Assembly (NCBI GenBank): GCA_016935635.1
Contig: JAFGQP010000288.1
Location: forward strand, 1-34,800
Length of the DNA: 34,800 bases
Direction: 5' to 3'
From: Sedimentisphaerales bacterium
GTDB taxonomy: Bacteria; Planctomycetota; Phycisphaerae; Sedimentisphaerales; Anaerohalosphaeraceae
The notes under the pieces are model-generated. The model worked only from the letters and a program-made list of their open reading frames with translations. It made no database searches and had not been told where the DNA came from. Made by a program: the position numbers and the translations under genes. Positions 9,292-18,622 of this stretch are shown piece after piece; the stretch's first letter is position 1; every line of letters starts with the position of its first letter.

Positions 9292-9334
9292 ATACAAAAT
9301 TGTAAATTGATAAAGATATGCTACAATTTTGTTA
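9292..9334. promoter_or_regulatory. Operator pair A (WTACA-N4-TGTAW) overlapping the likely activator promoter
   Basis: Two palindromes 29 bp apart: ATACAAAATTGTAA (9292-9305) and the imperfect CTACAATTTTGTTA (9321-9334). A possible core promoter, TTGTAA (9300-9305), 16 bases, TACAAT (9322-9327), is built from the same bases, so a protein bound here would cover both -35 and -10. No -24/-12 element fits between this pair and the ATG at 9379. The arrangement suggests autoregulation of the activator gene rather than enhancer action. Confidence 0.6.
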
Positions 9335-11092: not shown

Positions 11093-11179
11093 TATAGACC
11101 CGGAGTGAGGTGCAACAGGCCTGAGCTTCACAACCTTGTGTGTAAAACAAAACAGAAAACGATGATTATGGAGATTGCA

Positions 11180-12029: not shown

Positions 12030-13394
12030 ATGCGACACCATTTAAAAATAAACAAAGGTTTGCTTTTAGTGAATATTTTGCTGTTCATGCTTTGGGCGGG
12101 GGCGGCGCTGGCAGATGAGGCCGCTCCAGCTCCCGTAGACCCGGTGGCGGAGGCAAAAACCGAATTGCAAACCAATCTGAATATTGTCTGGACCTGTATA
12201 GCTGCATTTCTGGTGTTTTTCATGCAGGCTGGTTTCGCCATGGTGGAAACCGGATTTACCCGCGCCAAGAACTCTGTCAATATTTTGATGAAAAATCTGA
12301 TGGATTTTTCTGTCGGCAGCCTGGTTTATTTTGTTGTTGGTTTTGGTTTAATGTTTGGGGTATCCAACGGTGTTTTCGGTACAACTCTGTTTGGACTCAG
12401 CGGTACTGAGCCGGGAGCGGACTGGAACTGGACGTTCCTGATATTTCAAACGGTCTTTGCTGCAACCGCCGCCACGATTGTTTCCGGTGCAATGGCCGAA
12501 CGAACCAAATTTATTTCCTATCTGATTTACAGCGCGGTGATATCACTAGTGATTTACCCCATCTTTGGTTCCTGGGCATGGGGCAACCTGCTGCTGACGG
12601 ATAACAACAGCTGGCTGGCCAATATGGGCTTTCATGATTTTGCAGGCTCGACTGTAGTACATTCTATCGGTGGATGGCTGGCCCTGGCCGGGGCCCTTAT
12701 CCTTGGACCGCGTATCGGCAAATATGGCCCGGATGGCAAACCCAAAGCGATCCTGGGGCACAATCTGCCCCTGGCGGCACTGGGTGTATTTATCCTGTGG
12801 TTCGGATGGTTCGGGTTTAATCCCGGCAGCACCACCGTCGGCAACGGTTCCATCGGTTACATTGCGGTAACCACTAATCTGGCTGCGGCCGCAGGAGCAG
12901 TCATGGCATTGATCACCTCATGGATTATCATCAAAAAACCGGATATTTCCATGACCTTGAATGGAGCACTGGCCGGCCTGGTTGCAATCACGGCTCCCTG
13001 TGATGGCGTTTCCCCGATGGGTGCAATTGTTATCGGCTCTGTCGGCGGCATCCTGGTTGTACTGAGTGTGCTGTTCTTTGATTACGTGCTGAAAATAGAT
13101 GACCCGGTGGGCGCAGTCAGTGTGCATGGCGTCAATGGATTGTGGGGCACGATATCCTATGGATTATTTGCCATGGACGGCGGATTATTTTATGGCGGGG
13201 GATTCAAACAGCTGGGAATTCAATTGCTGGGTGCCGGAACTGCGTTTGCCTGGGCGTTCGGCCTGGGGCTGGTGATGTTTATTCTCCTGAAGAAAACCGT
13301 TGGACTTCGCGTCAATCTGGAAGAAGAACGTAAAGGCCTGGATATCGGCGAACATGGTATGGAAGCCTATAGTGGATTTCAAATTTTCAGTTAA
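12030..13394 (+). CDS. amt: Ammonium transporter, Amt family (copy 1)
   Basis: A 454-residue inner-membrane ammonium channel. A cleavable signal (about residues 1-33, ending [11 protein letters not shown]) precedes eleven predicted membrane helices. Family blocks include [41 protein letters not shown] and [11 protein letters not shown]. The twin pore histidines are His211 (VVHS) and His366 (VHGVNGLWG). The cytoplasmic C-terminal tail [27 protein letters not shown] is the segment known to couple Amt to PII. AAAGG lies before the ATG. It is the middle gene of the sigma-54-driven porin-amt-glnK operon, 20 bases before its PII partner, the usual arrangement for PII gating of ammonium uptake. Confidence 0.95.
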
Positions 13395-13414
13395 CATCCT
13401 ATTGGAGAATAAAC

Positions 13415-13756
13415 ATGAAACTGATAATAGCATATATACAACCGCATAAACTGGAAGAAGTCAAAGCCGCCCTGGCCAAAGCCGAGGTGGGGAAAATGTC
13501 GGTCACAAACTCACTGGGCTGCGGGGCTCAGATGGGGTACGAAGAAAGCTACCGCGGCGTGAAATTTGAGGTGAATCTGCTCAAAAAAGTGCGTCTTGAA
13601 ATTGCCGTCAATGAAAGTTTTGTGGAAAAAACCATTAATACCATTATCTCGGCAGCGCGTACCGGCCAGATTGGCGATGGAAAAATCTTTGTTGTTGGAC
13701 TGGAAGACTGCATCCGGATTCGAACGGGTGAGCGAGGCTCTCCAGCGATAGGCTAA
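13415..13756 (+). CDS. glnK: PII nitrogen regulatory protein (GlnK-type, copy 1)
   Basis: A 113-residue PII protein expected to form trimers, sense ATP/ADP and 2-oxoglutarate, and plug Amt through its T-loop. The B-loop [11 protein letters not shown] and C-terminal RIRTGE for nucleotide binding are intact, and Gln39 needed for 2-oxoglutarate is present. Numbered against E. coli GlnK without gaps, the T-loop reads [17 protein letters not shown]: Arg38 is Ala, Tyr46 is kept, and residue 51 (the uridylylated tyrosine) is Phe. Control by GlnD-type uridylylation at that site is therefore not expected. It differs from the second copy at 12 of 113 positions. GGAG precedes the ATG. It is the last gene of the operon. 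Confidence 0.95.
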
Positions 13757-14053: not shown

Positions 14054-15406
14054 ATGAAAACAGCAAAATGTAGCAGATGGTTGGCAGGCTTGTGCCTTTC
14101 AATATTGTTGGCATTACCCGGCCTTGCCTCGGCACAAGACAATGCAGGTATTGATGTTGCCCAACTCAAGCAGGGATTAGATACCGTATGGGTCTTGATT
14201 GCGGCATTCCTGGTATTCTTTATGCAGGCCGGTTTTGGCATGGTCGAAACCGGATTTATCAGGGCCAAAAATGCCTGTAATATTTTGACGAAAAACTTTT
14301 TAGATTTCTGTATGGCTTCACTGGGCTTTTTCCTGGTGGGCTATGGATTTATGTTTGGAGATGGCAATGGCTTTATGGGAATTAAGGGCTTCTGCCTGAG
14401 CGGTCTGGATTCCACTGTGAATGGACTTCCATTATATGCATTCTGGCTTTTCCAGGCGGCATTTTGCGGCGCAGCAGCAACTATCGTAGCCGGCGGCATG
14501 GCCGAACGAATGAAATTTGTCGCCTATTTAAGCTACTCATTCCTTATTTCTGCTTTGGTTTATCCGATTGTAGGACATTGGGTATGGGGCGGAGGCTGGT
14601 TGAGCAAAATGGGATTTGCTGATTTTGCCGGCTCGACGGTTGTGCATACCGTAGGCGGCATCGCCGCTCTGGTTGGAACAGTTATGCTCAAACCCCGTCT
14701 CGGCAAATATGGCATAGATGGTAAACCCCGCGTGCTGGCTGGCCATAACATCCCGCTGGCCTCACTGGGCGTATTCATCCTGTGGTTTGGCTGGTTTGGT
14801 TTTAATCCCGGCTCAACCCTTTCTGTCGGCAATGGCGACCTTATTTCGCGTATTTCGATTAATACGAATATGGCTGCAGCATTAGGCGGCATCACAGCGA
14901 TGGCTGCTGTATGGTACCGTTTTGGAAAGCCGGATTTATCCATGGCCATGAACGGTGCTTTAGCCGGCTTAGTCGCAGTAACCGCTCCCTGTGCGTATGT
15001 CGATCCCTGGGCAGCGATGGTGATTGGAATGATTGCAGGAATCATCGTAGTTTTTGGAGTTGAATTGCTGGATAAACTGCATATTGACGATCCGGTGGGT
15101 GCTGTACCGGTTCATGGTATGTGCGGCATATTCGGTACAATCTGTATCGGCATATTCGGCAAAAGCTCGCTGGGTTTGGCCAATGATGGATTTATCTATA
15201 GCGGCAATCCGACGCAATTAGGTATTCAAATGGTTGGCAGTTTCGGAACCATTGCCTTTGTGGTCATCATGATGGGAATTATATTTAAAGTGATTGATCT
15301 TACCGTCGGGCTTCGAGTTAGCCGGGAAGAAGAACTTCGAGGTCTGGACATTGGCGAACACGGAATGGAAGCATATAGCGGATTCCAAGTGTTCAGCACC
15401 ATGTAA
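14054..15406 (+). CDS. amt: Ammonium transporter, Amt family (copy 2)
   Basis: A 450-residue Amt paralogue. I start at ATG 14054, which gives a normal signal peptide ([28 protein letters not shown]); the track's GTG start 14 codons earlier adds a polar extension ahead of it. GGAG lies ten bases upstream. Family blocks [34 protein letters not shown] and [11 protein letters not shown] are intact. The pore histidines are His198 and His354, and the PII-coupling tail [27 protein letters not shown] is present. It is clearly related to copy 1 but diverged through the helices, so the duplication of amt is older than, or less homogenised than, that of glnK. It has its own operator pair and a weak sigma-54 promoter, and is followed 19 bases later by glnK copy 2. 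Confidence 0.94.
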
Positions 15407-15425
15407 ATTGAATTGGAGAATGATT

Positions 15426-15767
15426 ATGAAACTGATTATTGCATATATACAACCTCATAAACTGGAAGAAGTCAAACAAGCTCTGGCCAAAGCCGAGGTG
15501 GGAAAAATGTCGGTCACAAACTCACTGGGCTGCGGGGCACAGATGGGCTATGAGGAAAGCTATCGCGGCGTTAAATTTGAAGTCAATCTGCTGAAAAAAA
15601 TACGCCTCGAAATCGCTGTGAATGAAGATTTCGTCGAAAAAACAGTGGATACCATTATTGGTTCGGCACGAACCGGCCAGATTGGTGATGGTAAAATATT
15701 TGTCATGGATTTGGTGGATTGTATTCGCATTCGAACTGGAGAACGGGGAGGCAAGGCAATAGGCTAA
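15426..15767 (+). CDS. glnK: PII nitrogen regulatory protein (GlnK-type, copy 2)
   Basis: A 113-residue PII protein, identical to copy 1 at 101 of 113 positions. The first 58 residues, including the whole T-loop, differ at only one position (Ala18 to Gln). The differences cluster in the C-terminal half (e.g. VGLED versus MDLVD). It shares the same unusual features: Ala at position 38 and Phe at position 51, so it should not be uridylylated there. DNA identity with copy 1 is very high over the first half of the gene, pointing to recent duplication or gene conversion. The ATG follows GGAG; the longer track ORF starting inside amt is not used. Likely partner of Amt copy 2, and exchangeable in mixed trimers with copy 1. 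Confidence 0.95.
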
Positions 15768-15803: not shown

Positions 15804-15841
15804 GCCTGGGGTTACAAATATGTAACTCCAGGCATTTTTTT
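15804..15841 (+). terminator. Rho-independent terminator after glnK copy 2, built around an operator palindrome
   Basis: GCCTGGGGTTACA pairs with TGTAACTCCAGGC (13 bp, one G-T wobble) around the loop AATA, followed by seven T. The inner part is exactly TTACAAATATGTAA (15812-15825), the same 14-base sequence class as the operators. Unlike the others it has no partner 30 bp away. Confidence 0.9.
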
Positions 15842-16016: not shown

Positions 16017-16060
16017 TTACAATATTGTAATCATTAATATAAATAAATACATAAATGTAT
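16017..16060. promoter_or_regulatory. Operator pair E upstream of glnN
   Basis: TTACAATATTGTAA (16017-16030; a perfect 16-bp palindrome with its flanks) and ATACATAAATGTAT (16047-16060), exactly 30 bp apart. The second shares its 12-base core with copy C2. The nearer copy is centred 96 bp upstream of the -24 element. Confidence 0.78.
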
Positions 16061-16115: not shown

Positions 16116-16147
16116 GAGTTATGAAAATATTGGCGGCTTTTTCTTTT

Positions 16148-16163
16148 TGGCACGCCACGTGCA
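16148..16163 (+). promoter_or_regulatory. Sigma-54 promoter of glnN
   Basis: TGGCACGCCACGTGCA matches TGGCAC-N5-TTGCA at all but one base, with GG and GC exactly ten bases apart. The predicted start near 16174 leaves a leader of about 343 bases. Confidence 0.88.
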
Positions 16164-16279
16164 CAGAATATAAACAGAGCTTTTTGATAATGCTGAAGAA
16201 TGCCTAAAACCACCAGCAGTCTGCTAAGATGTTTGAATGCCCCGGATGTGCGGCAGGGTCATGTCAAATGCGTCTTAGA

Positions 16280-16365
16280 TCGGGGGATTGTATCAGCGAC
16301 TGGTTACAGCGTTTTTGGTGTTCTTCATGCAGGCCGACTTCCGGTTTCTCCGGGGTCGGCCCTTG
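16280..16365 (+). pseudogene. Decayed amt gene fragment in the glnN leader
   Basis: Translation of 16312-16335 gives FLVFFMQA, identical to the start of helix 1 in both intact Amt proteins. Over 29 bases the DNA agrees with amt copy 1 at about 25 positions. Upstream, GGGATTGTA lines up with the codons for NIV in copy 1 after a one-base frameshift. Downstream, CCGGTTTCTCCGGGG resembles the TGF(T/I)RA codons after a short deletion. There is no start codon with a ribosome site, and the frame stops soon after. It is too degraded to make a channel. Its position after operator pair E and a sigma-54 promoter copies the other two amt units. Confidence 0.65.
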
Positions 16366-16516
16366 TAAAAATCAGACAGATGAATCGGACAGCAATAAGT
16401 TCATTTGTAAAGGGATGAAATAGATTGTAATTATCGGGTGTCTGCTATAGGATTTACCCTGTGTAAATTCAGTATGGCAAAAAATGAATAAAGACTTTAT
16501 TAGCGGAGAAATTGTA

Positions 16517-18622
16517 ATGGAGACGCCAAAATGTACCAAAGATATTTTTGGGTCAAATGTATTTAATGATGCCGTGATGCGTGAGCGGCTTCCCAAGAAT
16601 ATCTACAAAGCCTTTGTCCAGGCTCGCAAGGGAAACCAGGAAATGACCCCTGCGGTTGCCGATGTGATTGCCAATGCGATGAAGGACTGGGCCATTGAAA
16701 AGGGTGCTACGCATTATTGCCACTGGTTTCAGCCAATGACAGGCCTGACGGCTGAAAAACATGATGCGTTTATCAATCCCACTGCCGACGGCCGGACAAT
16801 CCTGGAATTCGGCGGCAAAGAACTGATTAAGGGTGAGCCGGATGCGTCCTCTTTCCCGTCGGGCGGACTTCGTGCCACCTTTGAAGCTCGCGGCTATACC
16901 GCCTGGGATATTACCTCGCCGGCCTTTATCCGTGAAATCGGTAAAAATATCACACTGTATATTCCCTGTGCCTTTTGCAGCTACACCGGCATGGTCCTGG
17001 ACAAGAAGACCCCGCTGCTGCGTTCGATGGAGGCCTTGAGCAAGCAGGCGGTTCGTGTTCTGAAAGTGCTTGGAAATACGGAAGTCAAATCAGTCATAGC
17101 CACCCTCGGCCCTGAGCAGGAATACTTCCTGGTGGATCGCAAGTTCTTCGAAAAAAGACTGGATCTCCTGCTGGCCGGCCGTACACTGTTTGGCGCCCCT
17201 TCGCCCCGTGGCCAGGAAATGGAAGACCATTATTTCGGTTCACTGAACGAGCGTGTTGCCACCTATATGAACGAAGTCAATAATGAACTGTGGAAGCTCG
17301 GGGTGTCTGCCAAGACACAGCATAACGAAGTGGCTCCGGCCCAGTATGAGCTGGCCCCGATTTTTTCAACGGTCAATGTTGCCACCGACCACAATCAGTT
17401 AACAATGGATGTCATGCAGAAAGTGGCCCTGCGGCACGGCTTTGTCTGCCTCCTGCACGAAAAGCCCTTTGCAGGCGTCAATGGGTCGGGCAAGCATAAC
17501 AACTGGAGCGTCTGTACCGACACCGGGGTCAATCTTCTGGAGCCGGGCAATACGCCTCATGACAATATGGTATTCCTGGTCTTCCTGTGTGCCGTGATTC
17601 GCGGCGTGGATAAATATTCAACCATGCTGCGGGCGGCCGTGGCGACTCCGGGCAATGACCATCGTCTTGGCGCCAACGAGGCTCCTCCGGCGATTGTCTC
17701 GATTTTCCTTGGCGACCAGCTCACTGATATTTTCGAGCAGCTTGCCAGCGGCAAAGCCAAAAGCAGCAAGCAGGGCAGCGACATGAAAGTCGGTGTAACC
17801 ACGCTGCCTCCTCTGCCCAAAGACACCACGGACCGCAATCGCACCAGCCCGTTTGCCTTTACCGGTAATAAGTTTGAATTCCGTATGGTTGGATCATCGC
17901 AATCCACCGCCGGCCCGATGTTTGTCCTGAATACAATCGTTGCCGATGTGTTGTGTGAAATGGCCGATCAGCTTGAAAAGAGCAAAAACATCAATGCCGA
18001 TGTCCAGAAACTGCTTCAGAAAATCGTCAAAGAGCATTCTCGCATCGTTTTCAATGGTGATAATTATTCTGAAGATTGGGTCGCCGAAGCGGAAAAAAGA
18101 GGCCTGCCCAATATCCGCAACTGTGTCGATTCGATCAAGACCATTGCACAACCCGAACATGTCAAACTGTTCGGCAGGCATAATGTGCTCAGTAAGGTTG
18201 AACTGCATGCACGTGAGGAAATTCTGCTCGAAAACTATGCCAAGACGCTCAATATTGAAGCGGGTGCCATGCTGAATATCGGCCGTCGCCAGATTCTGCC
18301 GGCGGTTATGGAATATGCCGGCTTGGTTGCAGACAGCCTTAATACGATCTCCGATGCCGGCGGATCCTGTACCACGCAAAAGAAATTGCTGACGAAAATG
18401 ACCGATTTGATTGACCGTCTCAATGATGGACTGGAGAATTTGGCCGAGTCCATCGCCAAGGCAAAGGCGATTTCCAATGTCGAAAAAAAGGCCGACGCCT
18501 TTAAAGATAAAGTCGTCCCAGCCATGGTTGAAGTTCGTGCGGCATCCGACGAACTGGAGGCCCTGGTTGATGCAGAAATCTGGCCTCTGCCGACGTACGC
18601 TCAGATGCTTTATGTGAGATAA
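16517..18622 (+). CDS. glnN: Glutamine synthetase type III
   Basis: A 701-residue GSIII, which forms glutamine from glutamate, ammonium and ATP. The length fits the family (about 700-730). Recognisable blocks are TLGPEQEYFLVDR, HNEVAPAQYELAPIFSTVNVATDHNQL, HEKPFAGVNGSGKHNNWS (the active-site and ammonium-site region) and RTSPFAFTGNKFEFRMVGSSQS. I use ATG 16517, which has GGAG eight bases upstream; the ATG 11 codons earlier has no site and would bury that GGAG. GSIII lacks the adenylylation loop of GSI, so control is expected to be transcriptional, matching the strong sigma-54 promoter and paired operators upstream. A terminator ends the unit before gltB. Confidence 0.95.
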   Translation: METPKCTKDIFGSNVFNDAVMRERLPKNIYKAFVQARKGNQEMTPAVADVIANAMKDWAIEKGATHYCHWFQPMTGLTAEKHDAFINPTADGRTILEFGGKELIKGEPDASSFPSGGLRATFEARGYTAWDITSPAFIREIGKNITLYIPCAFCSYTGMVLDKKTPLLRSMEALSKQAVRVLKVLGNTEVKSVIATLGPEQEYFLVDRKFFEKRLDLLLAGRTLFGAPSPRGQEMEDHYFGSLNERVATYMNEVNNELWKLGVSAKTQHNEVAPAQYELAPIFSTVNVATDHNQLTMDVMQKVALRHGFVCLLHEKPFAGVNGSGKHNNWSVCTDTGVNLLEPGNTPHDNMVFLVFLCAVIRGVDKYSTMLRAAVATPGNDHRLGANEAPPAIVSIFLGDQLTDIFEQLASGKAKSSKQGSDMKVGVTTLPPLPKDTTDRNRTSPFAFTGNKFEFRMVGSSQSTAGPMFVLNTIVADVLCEMADQLEKSKNINADVQKLLQKIVKEHSRIVFNGDNYSEDWVAEAEKRGLPNIRNCVDSIKTIAQPEHVKLFGRHNVLSKVELHAREEILLENYAKTLNIEAGAMLNIGRRQILPAVMEYAGLVADSLNTISDAGGSCTTQKKLLTKMTDLIDRLNDGLENLAESIAKAKAISNVEKKADAFKDKVVPAMVEVRAASDELEALVDAEIWPLPTYAQMLYVR

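Follow-up and report, generated by a model that had tools for sequence, protein, structure and literature searches.

In cyanobacteria, glutamine synthetase regulation is known to be controlled by leader RNAs and by small RNAs, through elements other than the one described here (PMC6316151). Among them, the glutamine riboswitches, comprising the glnA and downstream-peptide aptamers, are described as restricted to cyanobacteria (PMC6316151). The literature that we searched, whose coverage was incomplete, did not describe a glutamine synthetase leader with an element derived from amt. We analysed a 34,800-nucleotide stretch of DNA (hereafter the window) from an uncultured genome; compared by glnN, its closest relatives with a name are Planctomycetota/Sedimentisphaerales MAGs. 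An earlier note, made from the letters of the window, had described the remnant of a third amt gene in the leader of glnN. Our comparison with related genomes suggests, with a probability of about 0.55, that this stretch is what is left of an ancestral amt2 once located upstream of glnN, and that it has been retained in the leader as a structured RNA element, for which we propose a function.

Gene island and glnN promoter region

The island contains, in order, a sigma-54 activator gene (encoding GAF, AAA and Fis-type HTH domains), an ORF at 11105 without Pfam match, amt1 (12030-13394, + strand), glnK1, amt2 (14054-15406, + strand), glnK2, glnN (16517-18622, + strand), gltB and gltD. glnN encodes a type III glutamine synthetase (GSIII_N, E 4e-77) and has an alternative in-frame ATG at 16484. 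This gene order is widely common in the family, and the amt modules differ in number and type. The congener G002 (L281, G002:C300) has three amt-glnK modules in tandem, with two divergent amt types. Gene orders thus compared indicate a rapid turnover of amt modules at this locus. The reading frame of the G002 amt1 is broken near L281:5130, either by an error or in reality. The DNA of glnK1 (13401-13700) and glnK2 (15412-15711) is 83% identical over 300 bases, closer than that of the adjoining amt genes, a likeness that may reflect recent duplication or gene conversion. A glnA-like gene for a glutamine synthetase of another type lies between glnK and glnN in G029 of genus g14 (L116, 7643-9618), and a relative of that gene likewise follows glnK in G017 (L292).

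Exact TACAWWWWTGTA operators were counted eight times in the window (0.02 expected), at 9293, 10912/10942, 13856/13886, 15813 and 16018/16048. The site at 15813 is inside the terminator hairpin behind glnK2. Three pairs are spaced at exactly 30 bp; they precede the 11105 ORF and amt1, amt2, and glnN. The glnN pair (16018-16029 and 16048-16059, + strand) is followed by a canonical sigma-54 -24/-12 promoter, TTGGCACGCCACGTGC, at 16147-16162 (+ strand; TGGCAC core at 16148-16162), which agrees with the operator pair and sigma-54 promoter reported by the earlier note. G001, another congener, also has a 30-bp operator pair, and a canonical sigma-54 site lies upstream of the amt-like stretch in both genomes. 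We infer a glnN transcription start near 16174. The predicted leader is 343 nt long, as the earlier note had estimated (about 343 bases), or 310 nt when counted to the ATG at 16484.

glnN of several other genera has operators and/or a sigma-54 promoter without an amt relic, and its leaders there are ~50-160 nt. Because these relic-free genera have it before glnN, the operator/sigma-54 arrangement does not by itself argue for a lost amt. That glnN inherited the regulation of the third amt, as the earlier note suggested, is possible: the glnN promoter may have come from a lost amt2, but could equally be glnN's own. In genus g2, and in contrast to glnN elsewhere, the glnK2-glnN gap (L118, 8770-8897; L122, 11078-11196) lacks a sigma-54 site; inspection by eye only suggested a sigma-70-like promoter there (TTGAC, about 17, TATACT/TATGCT).

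amt ancestry of the leader core

A repeat search of the window revealed one 36-base family with three copies, 75-78% identical, at 12196 in amt1 (paralogous site 12196-12231), 14196 in amt2 (14196-14231) and 16301 in the glnN leader. Within the leader copy, the 22-base core GCGTTTTTGGTGTTCTTCATGC (16309-16330, + strand) is identical in the glnN leader of G001. When 39 family genomes were searched, positions 16300-16341 matched the amt2 of relatives (G025, G015) at 90% over 42 bases with E 2.0e-9, and the amt-like stretch is therefore not a chance resemblance. The leader matched the window's own amt1 with E 0.06. The closest sequences to the leader element were the amt2 genes of genera g2 and g14, which matched far better than the window's own amt1 and amt2. 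The stretch reported by the earlier note is thus real; its closeness to both intact amt genes holds at the above 75-78% over 36 bases, but its nearest kin lie in g2 and g14. In the G001 leader, the core together with its continuation matched the amt2 of G030 at 36 of 37 bases. Judged by sequence similarity, the amt ancestry of the core is secure.

The core pattern proved specific to these two settings: in the 39 family genomes, all matches other than the leaders lie in amt genes. A covariance model of core plus hairpin (see below) was used to scan 161 genomes of the order, and 120 matches were taken from the resulting table. Of these, 111 fell inside listed amt matches; the nine outside comprised both leaders, another six amt genes and a single weak match by chance. 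This last, a candidate non-amt copy in G143, lay in an oxidoreductase-like gene. Viral contigs, considered as carriers of the core, gave no match. Further amt types of G001 and G002 were rejected as parents of the core; the site reads MTPGLAFF in amtC and FFMNLGFAAVES in amtX.

The earlier note had placed a frameshift before the core and a deletion after it, a description that the flanks do not bear out. Compared with amt, the sequences beside the core matched no better than chance against a shuffle control (p 0.07 in the window, 0.10 in G001) or against real 60-mers (p 0.21 and 0.13). The GC-rich hairpin that follows the core overlaps the amt codons AGFGMVEAG and is not unrelated sequence. 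Homology along the gene beyond the core, as in a pseudogene, was not observed; the downstream match was limited to the hairpin. The 60 bases before the core were suggestive by eye of amt2 homology (DTVWVLIAA) in G001, but were set aside at p about 0.1. Gapped alignment of the whole leader with amt at loose gap costs was likewise discarded; the alignments were long and uninformative, and their significance varied with the part chosen.

Conservation of the element in a congener

In G001 the same element occupies the same place, between the sigma-54 promoter and glnN. Read from the core, the G001 and window elements share 22 identical bases, then differ by one change, share GGCCG, differ by one change and share CTTC, after which the hairpin begins. 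Identity at fourfold-degenerate sites between the two genomes was 39% for glnN, 46% for the activator gene, 51% for glnK1 and 44% for gltB. The core is identical at 22 of 22 positions while these sites are 39-51% identical, and it has not diverged at the neutral rate. Because of this difference, the element appears to be under selection, conserved rather than decaying. The leader comparison is one of two sequences, window and G001; the assembly of the third congener, G002, breaks inside glnN. Coding parts of the window and G001 do hold identical runs of 23-36 bases; however, these are not comparable, because in coding DNA the amino acids hold two positions in three. Outside the element, alignment of the two leaders was only weak (60-65% identity and numerous gaps, p 0.02).

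These findings bear on the simplest reading of the element, in which a third amt module was lost to decay and left the core as its last recognisable, functionless scrap. Plain decay would account for the secure amt homology, and amt modules do come and go at this locus (three in G002). However, a run of 22 neutral matches at the fourfold identities given above has a chance of ~1e-7, and the hairpin was kept with a compensatory pair. We strongly disfavour this explanation. Of the proposed remnant of a third amt, the amt ancestry stands, but the element is conserved in G001 and not decaying.

Predicted structure of the leader RNA

The hairpin, GGCCGACTTCCGGTTTCTCCGGGGTCGGCC (16332-16361, + strand), has a folding energy of -22.7 kcal/mol in the window (z -4.4) and -27.2 kcal/mol in G001 (z -5.1). 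One compensatory pair, A-U versus G-C, separates the two. In an alignment of 13 sequences, amt coding rows included, 97% of cells were paired and 3 cells were changed on both sides, modest numbers for which controls were lower. The helices of the leader are in this way backed by compensatory change. Neither leader matched an Rfam family, and no glutamine riboswitch was listed at cut-offs of E 10 and E 5. An intrinsic terminator or attenuator was considered and rejected: the strong hairpin, which has no U tract behind it, is followed by CUUGUAAAA and UCUUAAUUG, with no U run, and a terminator scan did not call it.

A 5' arm, GCTGAAGAATGCCTAAAACC (16192-16211, + strand), is predicted to pair with the core. 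The computed 5' arm-core duplex had an energy of -20 kcal/mol in the window and -23 kcal/mol in G001 (p 0.003 each versus shuffles), and full-leader folds of both leaders contained the same helix. In amt2 mRNAs, no significant upstream pairing arm for the core was found; the downstream AAGAACACC (codons KNT), tried as its partner in these mRNAs, was rejected at p 0.04-0.6. The 5' arm varies between the leaders while the core stays, and the core is therefore held by more than the 5' arm helix.

Conservation of the core beyond the needs of 5' arm pairing could also arise if the element paired with, or served to decoy, an antisense or trans-acting RNA directed against amt, with the leader copy titrating that RNA. 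Such a role would suit a sense sequence that is common to amt2 and glnN transcripts. Nevertheless, a search across 13 genomes revealed no recurrent second site within two mismatches (<=2) of the 18-base core, and a decoy seems to us improbable.

The 5' arm also has an ATG, which in both genomes opens a reading frame through the core (72 aa in the window, 16200-16418, + strand; 66 aa in G001), in a frame other than that of amt. If this small ORF were translated, its peptide or its translation might control glnN. The GCA/GCG and CGA/CGG changes between the leaders are silent in its frame, and the N-terminal parts are weakly similar (p 0.02). However, one of the same changes is accounted for by the hairpin, in the window the core is crossed by two open frames out of three, the ribosome-binding sites are poor, and no homologue was found in 161 genomes beyond the shared core. 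The ORF is probably not a gene, and control of glnN through it is unlikely. A retained leader-RNA element remains the reading that we prefer.

Synonymous constraint within amt2

Between the amt2 genes of g2 and g14, the proportion of identical codons among identical amino acids was 0.82 at the element (20 codons) versus 0.44 gene-wide. This stretch had a z of 4.45 and ranked first of 393, and 0 of 2000 column permutations reached as high a value. The peak held within g2 (rank 1) and within g14 (2/2000). In the same genomes, the control genes glnN, gltB, activator and glnK peaked at 0.59-0.64. The peak was not seen among the amt2 genes of other genera (the window's included) or in a broad amt1 comparison; when four g2 genes were set against a single g14 gene, a small comparison, amt1 peaked at 0.83 near the same site. 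That amt1 peak (L118, L122, L123 and L141 of g2 versus L116 of G029) lay just upstream of and over FLVFFMQA, with codons unlike those of amt2.

In 8 of 9 g2/g14 amt2 genes, the hairpin formed by the codons AGF-GMV-EAG exceeded at least 95% of synonymous shuffles in stability; this was so for 1 of 14 genes in amt1 and for 1 of 7 genes in the other amt2. The amt2 of the window (14218-14260) has kept a weaker hairpin at these codons through a different pair that still matches, GGT with ACC for GGC with GCC.

The downstream constrained codons and the hairpin are both left unexplained by another possibility, that the core is an internal sigma-54 promoter (TTGGTGTTCTTCATGC) giving glnN a second, nearer start. 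Its GG-N10-GC spacing fits in both leaders; however, this spacing is forced by the amt codons L-V-F-F-M-Q, and the CACG half of the -24 consensus (TGGCACG-N4-TTGC) is absent. A canonical sigma-54 site, moreover, is already present upstream in both genomes. Such a promoter is, in our estimate, unlikely.

Origin of the element

In a tree of glnN proteins, the genus of the window (g1) formed one clade with g2, g13 and g14 (support 99/95). An intact amt2-glnK2 immediately precedes glnN in g2, and likewise in G060 of g14. In the amt tree, the window's amt2 fell outside the g2/g14 amt2 group with moderate support (88/81). An amt of the g2/g14 amt2 type is absent from G001 and is not among the three modules of G002; an intact amt of the right type at the site upstream of glnN was found in neither congener (G001, G002). 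The simplest account would be that the g1 ancestor had an amt2 of the g2/g14 type before glnN, lost all of it but the element, and gained other amt modules. The earlier proposal that the island once held three modules accordingly receives divided support: the three amt-glnK modules of G002 and the amt2-glnK2 before glnN in g2 and G060 speak for it, but the congeners have no amt of the right type at that place.

Discussion

According to the reading that we prefer, the fragment would come from an ancestral amt2 whose lineage is still intact in the sister genera g2 and g14. When amt2 was lost in the ancestor of the genus, the pyrimidine-rich 22-base core and the GC hairpin would have been left in the sigma-54-driven leader of glnN, and this piece may have been retained because it worked as RNA. 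In g2 and g14, the same piece is held at synonymous sites within amt2. In the glnN leader, next to the hairpin, the core would have come to form the 3' arm of a long helix; the 5' arm of this helix lies just past the predicted transcription start. The core could then either close the long helix with the 5' arm or be freed for another partner, next to the stable hairpin. The leader transcript would presumably be made under nitrogen limitation. Most likely, the element would act in cis as a structure in nitrogen-starvation mRNAs and tune their stability or translation; alternatively, within the same role, it may be a docking site for a trans-acting RNA or protein.

A farther-reaching reading, which we put forward tentatively and consider rather doubtful, is that a nitrogen-responsive RNA element resides in the amt coding sequence of one lineage and was kept in the glnN leader of a sister lineage after amt was lost there. 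A regulatory RNA would then have been handed between nitrogen genes through gene decay. If true, an RNA element within coding sequence can persist after its gene is gone and be co-opted as the leader of another gene, and ammonium uptake would be linked to glutamine synthetase control in an uncultured Planctomycetota group. The core, the 5' arm and the hairpin together make up a testable element. The case also serves as a warning against taking every recognisable gene scrap in a leader for a dead remnant.

The element shares features with several known systems. Like the glutamine riboswitches, it would place a structured 5' leader RNA, with a predicted role, in glutamine synthetase regulation (PMC6316151); unlike them, the leaders of the window and G001 have neither an Rfam match nor a known aptamer fold. 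The proposed RNA-level tuning of nitrogen assimilation resembles that of gifA by NsiR4 (PMC6316151). However, NsiR4 is a trans-acting sRNA that acts on the mRNA of an inhibitor protein, and no trans partner was found here in the 13 genomes searched. As in amt/AmtB pseudogene fragments, the leader element is amt-derived and no longer codes for Amt, but it is conserved, short (22-60 bases) and provided with a pairing arm. The local synonymous constraint and stable hairpin of g2/g14 amt2 are like those of RNA structures embedded in bacterial coding sequence. Unlike such structures, the element is also present outside coding sequence, in the leader of another gene in a sister genus.
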